Shown piece after piece: positions 3,499 through 18,824 of a DNA stretch of 64,000 nt. Source of the DNA: Planctomycetota bacterium (lineage in GTDB: Bacteria > Planctomycetota > Planctomycetia > Gemmatales > Gemmataceae); contig JAIOPV010000039.1 in assembly GCA_021413735.1 (NCBI GenBank), positions 62,001-126,000 on the forward strand, read 5' to 3'. Position 1 is the stretch's first letter, and each line of letters opens with the position of its first letter. The position numbers and the translations under genes were made by a program. Under the pieces are notes generated by a model that did not search any database, had not been told where the DNA came from, and was given only the letters and a program-made list of their open reading frames with translations.

Positions 3499-6400
3499 AT
3501 GGCAACCGACAATCCGAACGCCGACAATGCCAGTCCGTATAACCCTGACCCAGTTACGTTGCCCGGCAATCCGTTGGTGACACATGGGGAAACCCAACCC
3601 GATCACCGCAAACTTCCACCTGAAGAGACGATCTCTCACGCGAATTTGCCCCACACGCCTCCTTCGGCCTCAGTCCACAACGGAACTATTGCGCAGACAC
3701 CGCACGAAGCCGTGCGTGCGGCCGAACTTTCACATCACCCGATCCAGCAACGTCCATTCCCAGACATCCTTGGATACGAGATCACAGAAGAACTCGGTCG
3801 TGGTGGGATGGGGATTGTTTACAAAGCTCGCCACATTCGGTTGAATCGACCGACCGCCATCAAGATGCTGCTTGGCGGACAGTACCTCGATGCACTCGCT
3901 CAGACGCGATTTTTACTGGAAGCGGAAGCAGTTGCGCAGATTCAACACCCACACGTCGTTCAGGTGTTCGAGTTTGGACAGCACGACGGACAGCCTTTCT
4001 TCGCGTTGGAGTATGTCAACGGCGTGACACTGGCCAAGAAACTCCAGACCGTTGGTCCCTTCGCCCCGCGAGTGGCGGCCAAGATGGTGGCCAAGCTCGC
4101 TGATGCGATTGCAGCAGCTCACGCCAAAGGGATCGTTCATCGTGATTTGAAGCCTGCAAACGTGCTGCTCGATGAAAATGACGAACCCAAGATTGTCGAC
4201 TTCGGACTCGCAAAAGTTGGCAAGTCCGACATGACCATCTCCGGCGCGATCATGGGGACGCCGAGTTACATGAGTCCGGAGCAAGCGGCAGGACGCACCA
4301 AGGAGGTTGGCACTCCCACAGATGTCTATGGCCTTGGGGTGATCCTGTACGAACTCCTGAGTGGTCGCGCCCCGTTCAAGGGCGACTCAGCCATGGACAC
4401 GATCCAAAAAGTCCTGACGTCGGAATTACCGCGGTTAACGGGTGTGGCACCGAACACTCCACGCGACCTGGAGACAATCTGTGTAAAGTGTCTGGAAAAA
4501 GATCCGAGCCAACGCTACCGCACGGCCTCTGAACTGTTGTTGGACTTGCAGCTCTATATCCAGGGTCGCCCGATCATGGCGCGTCCCATTGGACCATTGG
4601 AGCGATCGTGGAAGTGGGTGAAACGACGTCCAGGGCGGGCGGGGGTGGTTGCGGCTGCCGTTCTGGTGCTGCTCGGGGCAGTGGTTGCCGCGAATGAGGT
4701 TCAGAAGCAGCAGGAGAGCGAACGATACGCGGCTGAGAAGCAGCGAGCCGATGATCGGATTACCGCGGAGCAGAAACGTGCAACAGACCTCCGAGCAAGT
4801 CGTGCCACGTCATTGATTCAGGCTTTGACTACTGCGGACACAGAAGAGTTGCCGCGAATTATCGACGACCTCGCGGAGTTTCGTGATCTGACACGAACCC
4901 AGTTGGATGGACTCGCAAGCCAACCAATAACGACGAAGCCCGGACTTCACGGCAGGCTCGCACTCTTGCGAGAGGAGCCGCGGCAGGCGGTGGAGTTGGC
5001 TCAGTACATCCCGCTTTGCCAACCCAACGAACTGCTCACGATCCGTGAATTGCTGACACCGCGTTATGAGTCCGTTTCCCTTGGCCTGTGGACATTGCTA
5101 TACGACGAGACGGCTGGATCTGCGAAGCGAGTTCGGGCGGCGTGTGCGCTGGCTGGATGGTGTGCCGAGGATCAACGCTGGGCGAAAGTGGCTCCTCGAC
5201 TGTCTGCGGCTGTTGTTCACGCGGCTCCGAATGAGTTCGTCGTCTGGGCGGAGGCACTGAACCCGGTTCGCAAGCATCTCGTGCCTGCGTTGATGATCCG
5301 CTATCTCGAATCACGTTCAAAATGCAGCGGCGGGAAGTTGACGGTGTCGGAGTTGGTCGCTGAGGCGTCAGCGTTTGATTTGGCAGCCAATCTCTTAGCC
5401 AGATATACGGTGGACCGCCCGGTGGACCTCGCGGAACTGGCGATAGTGTTGGATGCCCGACACTACGGGATGATTGCAGAGACTGTCCAGAAGCAAAACC
5501 GGGATGCGGTCATTCCCGTGCTGAAGGCAGAACTGGCCAAACGGCCACCATCGACTTGGGTTCAAGAAGGAGAACCCTGTCCTGCGGTGGCATCAATCCT
5601 CGGTGCCTTCCCGATGGTGGATATCCTGTTTCGCTCGGACGCGGTGTACGACACACTTGCGAGGCGTCAGGCGAATGCAGCGGCCGTGCTGCTGACCTTG
5701 GGAGAAGGAAAGATCGTGTGGCCCCTGTTGGCGTTCCCGAAGAATGGGGATCCATCCGTGCGAAGTCACTTGATCGAACGAATCGCGGCGATCGGCGTCG
5801 ATCCACGAACTCTGATGAGCCGGTTTGAGGTCGAGACCGACGTTTCGGCCAAGCGTGCGATCTTGATCGCCCTCGGCGATTATTCACCTGGGCTAATTCC
5901 ACCTCCGGAGCGTGGACAGTTTGTGTCGCGGTTGTTGAACCTGTACAGGGAGCATCCTGATTCTGGGCTCCACTCTGCCATCGAGTGGCTGCTTCGGCAG
6001 AAGTGGGACACGGCTCAGGAGGTTGGTGACATTGATGTGGGACTGTCCAAGTTCGCAAAAGGGCGGATCCCAACGAACAAGGACTGGTTCGTGAACGGGG
6101 AGGGTCAAACATATGCTGTTGTCCGTGGTCCCGTGGAGTTCACGATGGGGTCGCCGGTGACTGAAGTTGGCCAATTTGTTGATGAGACCACCAACAAGAA
6201 ACGGATTAGCCGTTCATTCGCCATCGCCACCAAGGAGGTGACAATTGAGCAGTTCCTGCGGTTCCGCTCGGATCACGCCTGGGAAAAACGCTACAGTCCA
6301 GCTCCGGACACACCAGTCGTGAAAATGTCTTGGTATCAGGCAGCGGAATACTGCAATTGGCTGAGCGCAAAGGAAGGCATTCCTGAGGCTCAATGGCCTT

Positions 6401-6885
6401 ACGAGCCGAACAAGGATGGGCAGTATGCGGAGGGAATGCGGATGAAACCCGAACACCTGAAGTTGACTGGCTACCGTTTGCCGACAGAGGCAGAGTGGGA
6501 GTATTCGTGCAGGTCGGGAAGCTCAACAGCCCGTCACTACGGTCGCGGGGAAGCGTTGATGTCGCGATATGGTTGGTTCTCGCGAACATCGGACGACCGC
6601 ACCTGGCCCGTGGGTCAACTCCGCCCCAATGACCATGGACTGTTTGACACGTTGGGGAATGTAATTGAGTGGGTCGAGGATCCAGGGTTCGCTCCTTCGG
6701 GCCAGCTCGAGGACATGGAGAATCCAAGGTATTTGGTGATTAACGAGCAGTCCAATCGACTCCTTCGGGGTGGTTCCTTCATCTACCTCCCGGCCTATCT
6801 TAGATCCGGATTCCGGAAGTATTATCAGCCTGGCAATCGCATTTATGACCTCGGGTTCCGTCCTGCGAGAACCGTAAACGAGTAG
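3499..6885 (+). CDS. Membrane Ser/Thr protein kinase with C-terminal FGE-sulfatase-like domain
   Basis: About 1128 residues. A low-complexity N-terminus is followed by a complete Hanks kinase: glycine loop GRGGMG (100-105), AIKML, HRDLKPAN (214-221), DFG (234-236), GTPSYMSPEQA. One membrane helix follows near 380-400 (GVVAAAVLVLLGAVVAA), then a charged coiled coil (about 400-440), a long helical, perhaps repeat-type region (440-860), and an FGE-sulfatase/SUMF1-like domain (about 870-1125) with FTMGSP, RLPTEAEWEYSC, GNVIEWVED and LLRGGSF. The cysteines of true formylglycine-generating enzymes that follow RGGS are missing, so this domain should bind rather than oxidise. The kinase should be cytoplasmic and the FGE domain outside, a receptor-kinase plan. 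A macro-SIR2 gene follows 36 bases later, probably cotranscribed. Confidence 0.9.
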   Translation: MATDNPNADNASPYNPDPVTLPGNPLVTHGETQPDHRKLPPEETISHANLPHTPPSASVHNGTIAQTPHEAVRAAELSHHPIQQRPFPDILGYEITEELGRGGMGIVYKARHIRLNRPTAIKMLLGGQYLDALAQTRFLLEAEAVAQIQHPHVVQVFEFGQHDGQPFFALEYVNGVTLAKKLQTVGPFAPRVAAKMVAKLADAIAAAHAKGIVHRDLKPANVLLDENDEPKIVDFGLAKVGKSDMTISGAIMGTPSYMSPEQAAGRTKEVGTPTDVYGLGVILYELLSGRAPFKGDSAMDTIQKVLTSELPRLTGVAPNTPRDLETICVKCLEKDPSQRYRTASELLLDLQLYIQGRPIMARPIGPLERSWKWVKRRPGRAGVVAAAVLVLLGAVVAANEVQKQQESERYAAEKQRADDRITAEQKRATDLRASRATSLIQALTTADTEELPRIIDDLAEFRDLTRTQLDGLASQPITTKPGLHGRLALLREEPRQAVELAQYIPLCQPNELLTIRELLTPRYESVSLGLWTLLYDETAGSAKRVRAACALAGWCAEDQRWAKVAPRLSAAVVHAAPNEFVVWAEALNPVRKHLVPALMIRYLESRSKCSGGKLTVSELVAEASAFDLAANLLARYTVDRPVDLAELAIVLDARHYGMIAETVQKQNRDAVIPVLKAELAKRPPSTWVQEGEPCPAVASILGAFPMVDILFRSDAVYDTLARRQANAAAVLLTLGEGKIVWPLLAFPKNGDPSVRSHLIERIAAIGVDPRTLMSRFEVETDVSAKRAILIALGDYSPGLIPPPERGQFVSRLLNLYREHPDSGLHSAIEWLLRQKWDTAQEVGDIDVGLSKFAKGRIPTNKDWFVNGEGQTYAVVRGPVEFTMGSPVTEVGQFVDETTNKKRISRSFAIATKEVTIEQFLRFRSDHAWEKRYSPAPDTPVVKMSWYQAAEYCNWLSAKEGIPEAQWPYEPNKDGQYAEGMRMKPEHLKLTGYRLPTEAEWEYSCRSGSSTARHYGRGEALMSRYGWFSRTSDDRTWPVGQLRPNDHGLFDTLGNVIEWVEDPGFAPSGQLEDMENPRYLVINEQSNRLLRGGSFIYLPAYLRSGFRKYYQPGNRIYDLGFRPARTVNE

Positions 6886-16105: not shown

Positions 16106-16432
16106 TCACGGAGTTGTGCCTGGGACAGTTATCTGAATGGGGAAGGACATTCCGGCAGTCAGCGGAATGTTCGCCAAGGCGGTTCGCACCTGTTCCACGA
16201 AGTTCATCACTTCGGCGGGAGTTGCTGATGCGGCGTAAGGAACTCGAATAACAAGCTCAGGGGGCTCGGGAGTTGCTGCCTCAAGCAACTCGCCTCCGTC
16301 AACGCGAGATCGAAGATGGGACACTGGCCAAGTCTTCTGTTCTTCGGAAAGTGCCAAATCACAATCGGCTTCGACGATCTCGAATGAGTCGATCCGAATT
16401 CGTTCACGGATATTCTCAGGTTGTTCTGTCAT
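16106..16432 (-). CDS. Small hypothetical protein, second gene of a two-gene unit
   Basis: 108 residues, acidic, without signal peptide or membrane helix. I do not recognise a family. Its ATG lies inside the 3' end of the preceding minus-strand gene (17-base overlap), which implies translational coupling. The arrangement is the main evidence that it is real. Confidence 0.6.
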   Translation of the reverse strand: MTEQPENIRERIRIDSFEIVEADCDLALSEEQKTWPVSHLRSRVDGGELLEAATPEPPELVIRVPYAASATPAEVMNFVEQVRTALANIPLTAGMSFPIQITVPGTTP

Positions 16433-16838
16433 GTGCTTCCTCCAATCTTACGGTTGCGCAGGCTAATTTCGTCGCCCCTTCTGACAGCCGAAATTCGTAG
16501 AATCCAGGCCGAATGAAAGCCACCTTTTTCAGTTTCACGGCGAAATTCCGAACTCCAAGACGGTCTGGACCGAATTCGACCCGGAAACGGTGGAGGATAA
16601 GCACCTCCGCATCAAGATCCCACGACTGCTCAATCACCAACTCATGAGATCCGGTCGCATCTGCTAATTGGCAGAATAACCAGAATTCTGCGACACGAAA
16701 CGGATATCCGCGTTCAGGTGGCACAATGACGGAGAACGGATCCTCAATTATGTACCGATTCGGAAAGACCGTGGTGTCGCAACCAACGGAGGAGCAGGGG
16801 ATAAACTGCCGGACCACGGGTTGTGGGACGCTTGACAT
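16416..16838 (-). CDS. Conserved hypothetical, DUF6941-like
   Basis: 140 residues, soluble. The segment RYIIEDPFSVIVPPERGYPF, the phrase FWLFCQLADATGSHEL and the ending GFYEFRLSEGATKLA resemble the DUF6941 family, a beta-rich protein of unknown function; I hold that name loosely. AGGA precedes the ATG. It overlaps the next gene by 17 bases and is divergent from the membrane protein at 16972. Confidence 0.65.
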   Translation of the reverse strand: MSSVPQPVVRQFIPCSSVGCDTTVFPNRYIIEDPFSVIVPPERGYPFRVAEFWLFCQLADATGSHELVIEQSWDLDAEVLILHRFRVEFGPDRLGVRNFAVKLKKVAFIRPGFYEFRLSEGATKLACATVRLEEAHDRTT

Positions 16839-16911: not shown

Positions 16912-16941
16912 TTGACTTCACTTTGCAACGTAAAGTATACT
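16912..16941 (+). promoter_or_regulatory. Strong candidate promoter of the membrane protein/regulator operon
   Basis: TTGACT, an 18-base spacer and TATACT, close to the sigma70 consensus, 30 bases before the translation start. The operator at 16920-16936 fills the spacer and touches the -10 box, so a bound protein should block RNA polymerase. Confidence 0.7.
16920..16936. promoter_or_regulatory. Palindromic operator, copy 1
   Basis: ACTTTGCAACGTAAAGT, an ACTTT/AAAGT inverted repeat. It matches the copy at 17992-18008 at 14 of 17 positions; all three differences are C/T changes. It is probably bound by the winged-helix protein encoded at 17576. Confidence 0.65.
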
Positions 16942-16971
16942 GCCTGGGCAACTGCACTCCCGGGATAAGTG

Positions 16972-17583
16972 ATGCACGTTCACGACGCGCTCGACCGGCT
17001 CGACCTGATCCACAATCAGTTGACCCGCTCCGAAGTGTACCGTGGGTTCCGTGAACCCGCAGTCGCTGCGGTCGGGCTTCTCGCTTTCGCCGCTGCAACT
17101 GTCCAACCACTCATTCCGGGTGCCACCGAAGGAATCGGCTTCGTCTGGTTCTGGGTCGCCATCGCAGGCGTCGGCGGGCTTCTCGGTACATCGGCCGCCA
17201 TTCATGCATACGCCACTCGCGAAGACGATTTCGCTCGACGGCGCACTCGCCGCGTCATGACACAGTTCGCACCGTGCTTGCTCGTCGGCGGCACAATCAC
17301 GATTGGATTCGCTCGCGTCCCAGAGTTGGCGGCGTTCCTTCCAGGCGTCTGGGCGGCTGTCTTGGGGCTTGGACTCGTGGCGGCTTCGCCGCATCTGCCC
17401 ACGGGGATCGGACTCGTTGCACTCGGGTATGTCGCCGCTGGTGCGTTCCAACTTCTCCGATGCACACCAGGCGATAATCCTGACGGCTGGGCGGTCGGAA
17501 GCATCTTTGGTGTTGGGCATCTCCTGAGTGCGTGGGTGCTGTGGCGGGGTTCGGAAGAAGCCGAGGAGTACGACGATGAGTGA
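16972..17583 (+). CDS. Multi-pass membrane protein of unknown function
   Basis: 203 residues (an in-frame GTG lies one codon earlier). After an N-terminal soluble stretch (HDALDRLDLIHNQLTRSEVY) there are five or six hydrophobic segments, for example AVGLLAFAAATVQPLI, FVWFWVAIAGVGGLL, VWAAVLGLGLVAA and GLVALGYVAAGAF. The C-terminal tail is acidic. No family recognised. Its stop overlaps the start of the winged-helix gene by 8 bases, so the two are translationally coupled and controlled by the operator-bearing promoter just upstream. A regulator coupled to an unknown membrane partner suggests a small sensing module. Confidence 0.85.
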   Translation: MHVHDALDRLDLIHNQLTRSEVYRGFREPAVAAVGLLAFAAATVQPLIPGATEGIGFVWFWVAIAGVGGLLGTSAAIHAYATREDDFARRRTRRVMTQFAPCLLVGGTITIGFARVPELAAFLPGVWAAVLGLGLVAASPHLPTGIGLVALGYVAAGAFQLLRCTPGDNPDGWAVGSIFGVGHLLSAWVLWRGSEEAEEYDDE

Positions 17584-17950
17584 CGAAACCGATGGCCGCT
17601 TCGCCTACGACGGACTCGATCGCGTGCTGCACGAGAAGGCCAGACTCGGCATCCTCACGGCACTCGTCACGCACCGAGAAGGGCTATCGTTCGGCGATCT
17701 TTCGAGACTGTGTGCCCTCACCGATGGCAACCTGAGCCGACATCTCGACGTCCTTGCTGAAGAGGGTTTGGTGCAAATCGCGAAGGCGTTCGTGGGGCGG
17801 CGACCGCAGACGAGTTGCAAACTCACAGTGGTGGGGCGGAAGCGATTCCGCGAATACCTCGGGCAACTGGAACAGGTGCTCCGCGACGCTGCCGACGAAG
17901 AAACAGCGAAGACCAAAACGAAGCCGCGGCCTGGATTGGCTGGGGCGTAG
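17576..17950 (+). CDS. Winged-helix transcriptional regulator (PF13601-like)
   Basis: 124 residues. A MarR/ArsR-like winged helix: RLGILTALVTHREGLSFGDL, then recognition helix ALTDGNLSRHLDVLAEEGLV and wing VQIAKAFVGRRPQT. Length and layout match the short winged-helix family often coupled to membrane proteins. GAGGAG lies before the ATG, which overlaps the previous stop by 8 bases; the frame is open upstream but lacks an RBS. It probably represses its own operon and the ferritin-like gene through the shared ACTTTG...AAAGT palindromes (inference). A good terminator follows. Confidence 0.88.
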   Translation: MSDETDGRFAYDGLDRVLHEKARLGILTALVTHREGLSFGDLSRLCALTDGNLSRHLDVLAEEGLVQIAKAFVGRRPQTSCKLTVVGRKRFREYLGQLEQVLRDAADEETAKTKTKPRPGLAGA

Positions 17951-17957
17951 AGAACAG

Positions 17958-17982
17958 GGCGGGAGAACCCCGCCTTCTTTTT
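17958..17982 (+). terminator. Rho-independent terminator after the winged-helix gene
   Basis: Stem GGCGGG/CCCGCC with a 5-base loop followed by TTCTTTTT. It separates the two-gene operon from the ferritin-like gene, so the latter needs its own promoter. Confidence 0.75.
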
Positions 17983-17991
17983 CGCCCTTTA

Positions 17992-18008
17992 ACTTTGTAA
18001 TGCAAAGT
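17992..18008. promoter_or_regulatory. Palindromic operator, copy 2
   Basis: ACTTTGTAATGCAAAGT, 27 bases before the ferritin-like start, again immediately followed by an AT-rich possible -10 (TATTTT at 18008). It links this gene to the upstream regulator. Confidence 0.65.
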
Positions 18009-18035
18009 ATTTTCTATCACCAATGGAGTAGCGAC

Positions 18036-18824
18036 ATGGAACTCGCGATTGAAGGCCGAGCGGCGGTGTGGAGCTCGGAAGAATGGGTCGCGTATTTTGG
18101 GGCCAATGCGAAGCGGTTGCTCAATATCCCGTGGGAACTCGAGGCAGGGCTGACGCCTGAAGAACTGGCCATGGTGGCTGCGTCATTGCCCGCGTGGCAA
18201 CTCGGCGAGACGTCCGACGGTGCTCACTTGTTCGCGGCAGCGCGCAAGTACGCGGAGGCAAACAACGATCCCGCTTTCGTTGAGGCGGTCAGGCTATTCA
18301 TTCATGAGGAGCACCGACACGGTTCGCAACTCGGCCGGTTCCTCGATCTCGCGGGGATTCCGCGTCGGACGTGGTATTGGGGCGACACTCTCTTTCGGCA
18401 GTTTCGACGGCTGTTCACGCGAATCGAGATGTCGGCCAGCATTGTGGTGATGGTCGAGATTCACGCGCTGCTGTACTACGGAGCGATTCGCCGGGGAACG
18501 GGTTCGCTGGTGTTGCGGCGTGTGTGTCAGCAGATTCTCAGGGACGAGATACCCCACATTCGCTTTCAGTGCGAACGGCTTGCGATGTTACATCGGCGTC
18601 GGCCCCGTATCTTGCGAATGCTGACGCTGCTTTCGCATCGAATGATGTTCGCAGGGATTACGCTTGCGATCTGGGTTGGGCACCGGCGAGCGCTGCACGC
18701 GGGTGGATTCACATTTGGGAGATTTTGGCGAACGGCGTGGTCGAAGATGGGTCACACTTGGCGAACGATGGACCCGCGAGCTTACCGTTGGCCAGAAGCC
18801 GAACTCCGCCCAGTGGCGGAGTGA
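18036..18824 (+). CDS. Ferritin-like diiron protein of unknown function
   Basis: 262 residues, no signal peptide. The spaced acidic/His pairs FIHEEHRHGSQLGRFLD, VVMVEIHALLYYGAI and RDEIPHIRFQCERL are the pattern of a four-helix diiron (ferritin-like) fold. The C-terminus is basic with a hydrophobic helix. The exact family is not recognised; an oxygenase, desaturase-like or iron-handling protein is possible. GGAG lies seven bases before the ATG at 18036; an in-frame ATG at 18000 lies inside the operator and is unlikely. It is preceded by the second operator copy and is probably coregulated with the membrane protein/regulator pair. Confidence 0.75.
   Translation: MELAIEGRAAVWSSEEWVAYFGANAKRLLNIPWELEAGLTPEELAMVAASLPAWQLGETSDGAHLFAAARKYAEANNDPAFVEAVRLFIHEEHRHGSQLGRFLDLAGIPRRTWYWGDTLFRQFRRLFTRIEMSASIVVMVEIHALLYYGAIRRGTGSLVLRRVCQQILRDEIPHIRFQCERLAMLHRRRPRILRMLTLLSHRMMFAGITLAIWVGHRRALHAGGFTFGRFWRTAWSKMGHTWRTMDPRAYRWPEAELRPVAE

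Follow-up and report, generated by a model that had tools for sequence, protein, structure and literature searches.

Organization of the locus

In the window (the whole stretch of 64,000 nucleotides that was analyzed), two transcription units follow one another on the forward strand, set apart by a hairpin resembling an intrinsic terminator (GGCGGG-loop-CCCGCC and a T run; 17956-17981). The first unit holds a gene for a 203-aa integral membrane protein (16972-17583, starting at the ATG at 16972 or at a GTG at 16969) and, overlapping it by 8 bases, a gene for a 124-aa winged-helix regulator (17576-17950); the second holds a gene for a 262-aa, R2/R2lox-like protein of the ferritin superfamily (18036-18824). 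We place the end of the first unit at the hairpin, on which the earlier note is silent, on the basis of its position rather than of statistics, because the terminator scan returned 2 hairpin sites of this type against 2.0 expected. Upstream of the operon lies a divergent gene (16416-16838, reverse strand) with a weak DUF6941 match (19.7 bits; cut-off 27).

The first unit has a -35 element TTGACT (16912-16917) and a -10 element TATACT (16936-16941), a pair that the promoter consensus scan scored at 10 of 12 consensus matches with an 18-bp spacer. This spacer is filled by a palindrome, putative operator 1 (ACTTTGCAACGTAAAGT, 16920-16936), whose last T is also the first T of the -10. A second palindrome, putative operator 2 (ACTTTGTAATGCAAAGT, 17992-18008), precedes the ferritin-like gene and shares its last base with a -10-like TATTTT (18008-18013), at an offset identical to that of operator 1 from its own -10; this second promoter has a poor -35 and was missed by the consensus scan. 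An earlier note on this DNA had placed the palindromes here, one between a near-consensus -35 and -10 and the other ahead of the ferritin-like gene, with 14 of 17 bases matching, and all of this proved correct: the three differences, at positions 7, 10 and 12, are all C/T.

Within the window, a loose form of the pattern (at most 2 mismatches) occurs 9 times where 4 are expected, which is mildly above chance. Over the whole 9.8-Mb genome, ACTTTGN6AAAGT is found in four places: two are this locus (1,072 bases apart), the third lies within a MoxR-type gene, and the fourth is non-palindromic and lies 15 bp 5' of a small ORF. The pattern ACTTTGYAAYGYAAAGT occurs without mismatch in the whole genome only at operators 1 and 2, and the genome-wide search that the earlier note had proposed left these two as the sole palindromic, promoter-placed sites of their kind. 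A larger regulon in this genome was considered and rejected, as matches with at most 3 mismatches were no commoner than those to a reversed control (28 vs 49) and none of the extra matches inspected precedes a convincing gene. In the window's own genome, then, the regulon appears to consist of just two units, the operon and the ferritin-like gene.

The encoded proteins

The regulator matches PF13601 (HTH_34) at 69.4 bits (cut-off 27) over profile positions 2-79 of 80; its TDGNLSRHL recognition region is conserved, and the nearest solved structure is 1ub9 (PH1061). Like other HTH_34 proteins, which are MarR/ArsR-like, it is a short one-domain protein with a single winged-helix DNA-binding domain; it differs from them in having a defined putative operator, a conserved membrane partner and candidate isoprenoid targets, and no HTH_34 regulon or operator was found in the papers searched. 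Identification as an ArsR/SmtB metalloregulator (NF033788; 32.2 bits against a cut-off of 55) or as the SdpR autorepressor (NF033789; 19.3 against 100) was rejected.

The AlphaFold2 (AF2) model of the 203-aa protein (pLDDT 92) shows one N-terminal helix and six transmembrane (TM) helices. The protein is conserved across phyla in a 30-member alignment; it scored above the cut-off of no family in Pfam or NCBIfam, and a fold search of the PDB with the model gave no significant match. DUF3487, which gave two weak matches among the 30 members, was set aside. SdpR/SdpI consists of an ArsR-type autorepressor and a membrane protein able to sequester it. The present operon resembles that pair in being, by our reading, an autoregulated unit in which a small winged-helix protein is encoded together with a multi-pass membrane protein, and differs from it in that the gene order is reversed, the targets are different and the membrane protein matches no family. 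By analogy with SdpI/SdpR, the signal would most readily enter through the conserved membrane partner, a role that we suggest tentatively. More tentatively still, the six-TM protein may be a new sensor family that reads the levels of isoprenoids or lipid carriers and either retains the winged-helix repressor or lets it go.

The earlier note had left the third gene as encoding an uncharacterized ferritin-like protein; its link to an operator stands, and the model points to something more specific, an R2/R2lox-type oxidase. The model (pLDDT 87) has the four-helix-bundle fold of R2-type diiron proteins, with R2lox 7qbp as its best structural match (Z 19.8, 3.0 A, 234 residues). The ligand pattern is that of R2-like diiron carboxylate proteins of the ferritin superfamily (E, ExxH, E, ExxH), here E58, E92xxH95, E141 and E171xxH174; among 21 homologues E92, H95, E141, E171 and H174 are invariant and E58 is at least 90% conserved. 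Searches with the protein gave no Pfam family at E 0.1, the Pfam Ferritin family included, and no NCBIfam match. It thus resembles R2lox, NrdF and aldehyde-deformylating oxygenase (ADO) in fold and diiron ligands, and is set apart from them by an identity of only about 13% and by matching no Pfam or NCBIfam family. Iron storage was rejected as its role, because the protein matches no ferritin family and is nearest in fold to R2/R2lox/ADO; given the diiron model, the protein is probably an oxidase that modifies isoprenoids or other lipids.

Conservation of the operator pair

Two samples of relatives were compared. Among 95 genomes of the same family, 50 carry the regulator and 25 the ferritin-like gene, and the palindrome recurs at both equivalent positions in most of the loci. 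Another 80 regulator loci (some from the same assemblies as before) came from scanning 84,980 species genomes; they belong to the Planctomycetota, Alphaproteobacteria, Acidobacteriota (including Thermoanaerobaculia and Holophagales), Sumerlaeota/BRC1 and Hinthialibacteria. The orthologues keep the layout of operator, six-TM membrane protein, regulator, operator and target gene, and in the loci of the scan the sites lie about 640-675 bases 5' of the regulator start and just past the regulator end. When as many as 2 mismatches in 12 bases were allowed, operator 1 was found in 70 of 77 loci and operator 2 in 62 of 80, loci that span phyla yet are non-independent, with Bradyrhizobium over-represented; 60 permuted half-sites, in comparison, gave a mean of 0.43 loci for operator 1 and 0.53 for operator 2. 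The motif is therefore enriched near orthologues in several phyla, the very test on which the earlier note had beforehand staked its claim. The weak enrichment of the degenerate pattern inside the window would fit chance palindromes without function, but this reading is refuted by conservation across phyla where about 0.5 loci are expected, and we give it practically no weight.

No recognizable site was seen beside the regulator in L052, L055 (operator 2), L272, L274, L275, L279 and the regulator locus of G051. Alphaproteobacterial genomes that were searched generally have two sites each, both at the regulator locus. One same-family genome, G019, contains 48 motif matches; these were rejected as a regulon, being mostly copies of a dispersed repeat element. 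On its contigs (e.g., L284-L293) the repeat contains GGCCATAA(C/A)GGCCACC...GTGAGAAAA, within which lies TCTTTGCACCGCAAAGT or a closely similar sequence; it could seed binding sites, or the resemblance could be a coincidence.

The regulator as the probable binder

The winged-helix protein had been named as the obvious binder, and so far as comparison goes the data agree, since motif abundance follows the presence of the regulator. Within the family, the median number of motif strand-hits is 6 in genomes that carry a close regulator and 0 in those without one (G019 left out, genomes counted uncorrected for kinship), and a reversed control pattern showed no difference between the two groups. In G051, G094 and G006 the ferritin-like gene lies away from the regulator and yet bears one or two operators, and the ferritin-like gene of G074, a genome that lacks the regulator, has none. 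Operator 1 lies in the regulator's own promoter and is conserved together with the gene in the 70 loci counted above, the arrangement of an autoregulated one-component repressor.

The palindromes could instead be bound by some other, unlinked transcription factor, with the HTH_34 gene merely another of its targets, and the regulator of G051 and of some other genomes does stand without a recognizable adjacent site. The sites, however, follow the regulator genome by genome and flank its gene on both sides in several phyla. In a diverged branch of regulators (about 47% identical), operator 1 reads ACTTTGNNNNNCAAACC or similar, with ACTTTG...CAAA kept and the outer bases lost, and operator 2 was not found. 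We consider an unlinked factor very improbable.

A model for repression

Our preferred reading, to which we give a probability of roughly 0.78, is that the palindromes are operators for the product of 17576-17950, an autorepressor that also represses the oxidase gene, and that this cassette is an old one found with varied isoprenoid genes; the identity of the operators, their link to the regulator and the target classes are shown by comparing genomes. The regulator would bind ACTTTGYANNRCAAAGT as a dimer within the -35/-10 spacer, and its occupancy of the spacer would keep both the membrane protein/regulator operon and the neighboring oxidase gene repressed until a signal comes. That signal could be the state of the membrane or its lipids, sensed by the six-TM partner, which would then relieve repression. 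Repression, dimer binding, membrane sensing and the substrate of the oxidase are the parts of this reading that we infer.

Whether the bound protein represses or activates is addressed by the promoters themselves. An 18-bp spacer filled by an operator fits steric repression better than activation of the MerR type, which works on spacers of 19-20 bp. An activator, or a dual-acting regulator, would suit the second promoter, with a poor -35 as is often the case in activated promoters, and would suit the tandem sites that precede the target gene in L071, L073, L133, L152 and L257. Operator 1, on the other hand, sits in a near-consensus promoter with a spacer of ordinary length and overlaps the -10, an arrangement that usually blocks polymerase, and we hold activation at the spacer operators to be unlikely.

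Target genes and isoprenoid metabolism

The gene that follows the regulator varies: in 107 loci, with classes assigned from signature peptides, it encodes a cis-prenyltransferase (uppS) in 49, IspH in 19, the ferritin-like protein in 13, a B12-binding radical-SAM enzyme in 5 and another protein in 17, with the contig ending in the remaining 4. The prenyltransferase tested is of the PRK14839 type. In the genomes checked that hold two IspH copies (G061, G075, G096 and G097), the one linked to the regulator is the lower-scoring, at 242-251 bits against 306-322 for the housekeeping enzyme. Away from the regulator, operators precede a polyprenyl diphosphate synthase gene in 17 genomes, which belong to several genera and include that of Singulisphaera acidiphila; further unlinked sites in some relatives lie ahead of genes for the radical-SAM enzyme and for some uncharacterized membrane proteins. 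In G050 the ispH and ferritin-like genes adjoin on the same strand, and a single locus in G064 has three sites, one each for the membrane protein/regulator operon, ispH and the ferritin-like gene. On a tree of the regulators about 18 changes in next-gene class are counted (53 when shuffled) while the operator persists; the forks of this tree are weak because it is built on few alignment columns, and it does not root the origin of the cassette.

The earlier proposal of a small regulon of uncharacterized proteins is accordingly right for this genome as to its two units, but not for the relatives, where the targets are mostly isoprenoid genes. The window's own genome has polyprenyl synthases and a single ispH without an operator, so that here the isoprenoid link rests on homology. 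One might see in the regulon a general control of membrane or oxidative stress that takes in isoprenoid genes only incidentally; an oxidase is the target at this locus, and some of the sites elsewhere precede DUF2809-type and other membrane proteins. Against this, several isoprenoid-related families turn up repeatedly as targets, both beside the regulator and away from it, in independent genome neighborhoods, and we judge general stress control to be as improbable as activation. Under our preferred reading, the old cassette is paired with a cis-prenyltransferase, a second IspH, a polyprenyl diphosphate synthase or a B12-radical-SAM enzyme, and here with an R2-like oxidase. Since the cassette is found with varied isoprenoid genes, the third protein is probably an enzyme that depends on oxygen and has an isoprenoid or a related lipid as its substrate.

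To our knowledge, bacteria have few described transcription factors that are dedicated to core isoprenoid genes, and no description of this operator or of such a regulon was found in the open papers searched. The operator pair beside the regulator in several phyla points, at the level of sequence, to an undescribed and widespread isoprenoid regulatory switch, new in its operator, its partner family and the target set of its autoregulated one-component regulator. It would also assign the six-TM partner and the R2-like oxidase, both uncharacterized, to isoprenoid metabolism. If the sensing role suggested for the membrane protein is true, it would form with the regulator a portable module for feedback on isoprenoid supply, with the target swapped behind operator 2 across phyla. 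Since one operator sequence is kept from Gemmata to Bradyrhizobium and Methylobacterium, the regulator can be tested in tractable hosts.

Several sites precede genes of other kinds. The operator lies ahead of an uncharacterized membrane protein (FRELDRILRGEA...) in L113, L116, L130 and L139, from three genera, with no Pfam match for the protein of L116, the one tested. In the same-genus relatives L115, L118 and L122 it lies ahead of a DUF2809-type membrane protein, the Pfam match having been tested on L122. In two Singulisphaera genomes (L253, L256) the protein that follows resembles polysaccharide deacetylases by eye. Finally, in the Bradyrhizobium locus L229, the prenyltransferase gene is followed by one for a radical-SAM protein (5254-6777) that scores above the BchE cut-off (545.8 vs 481).
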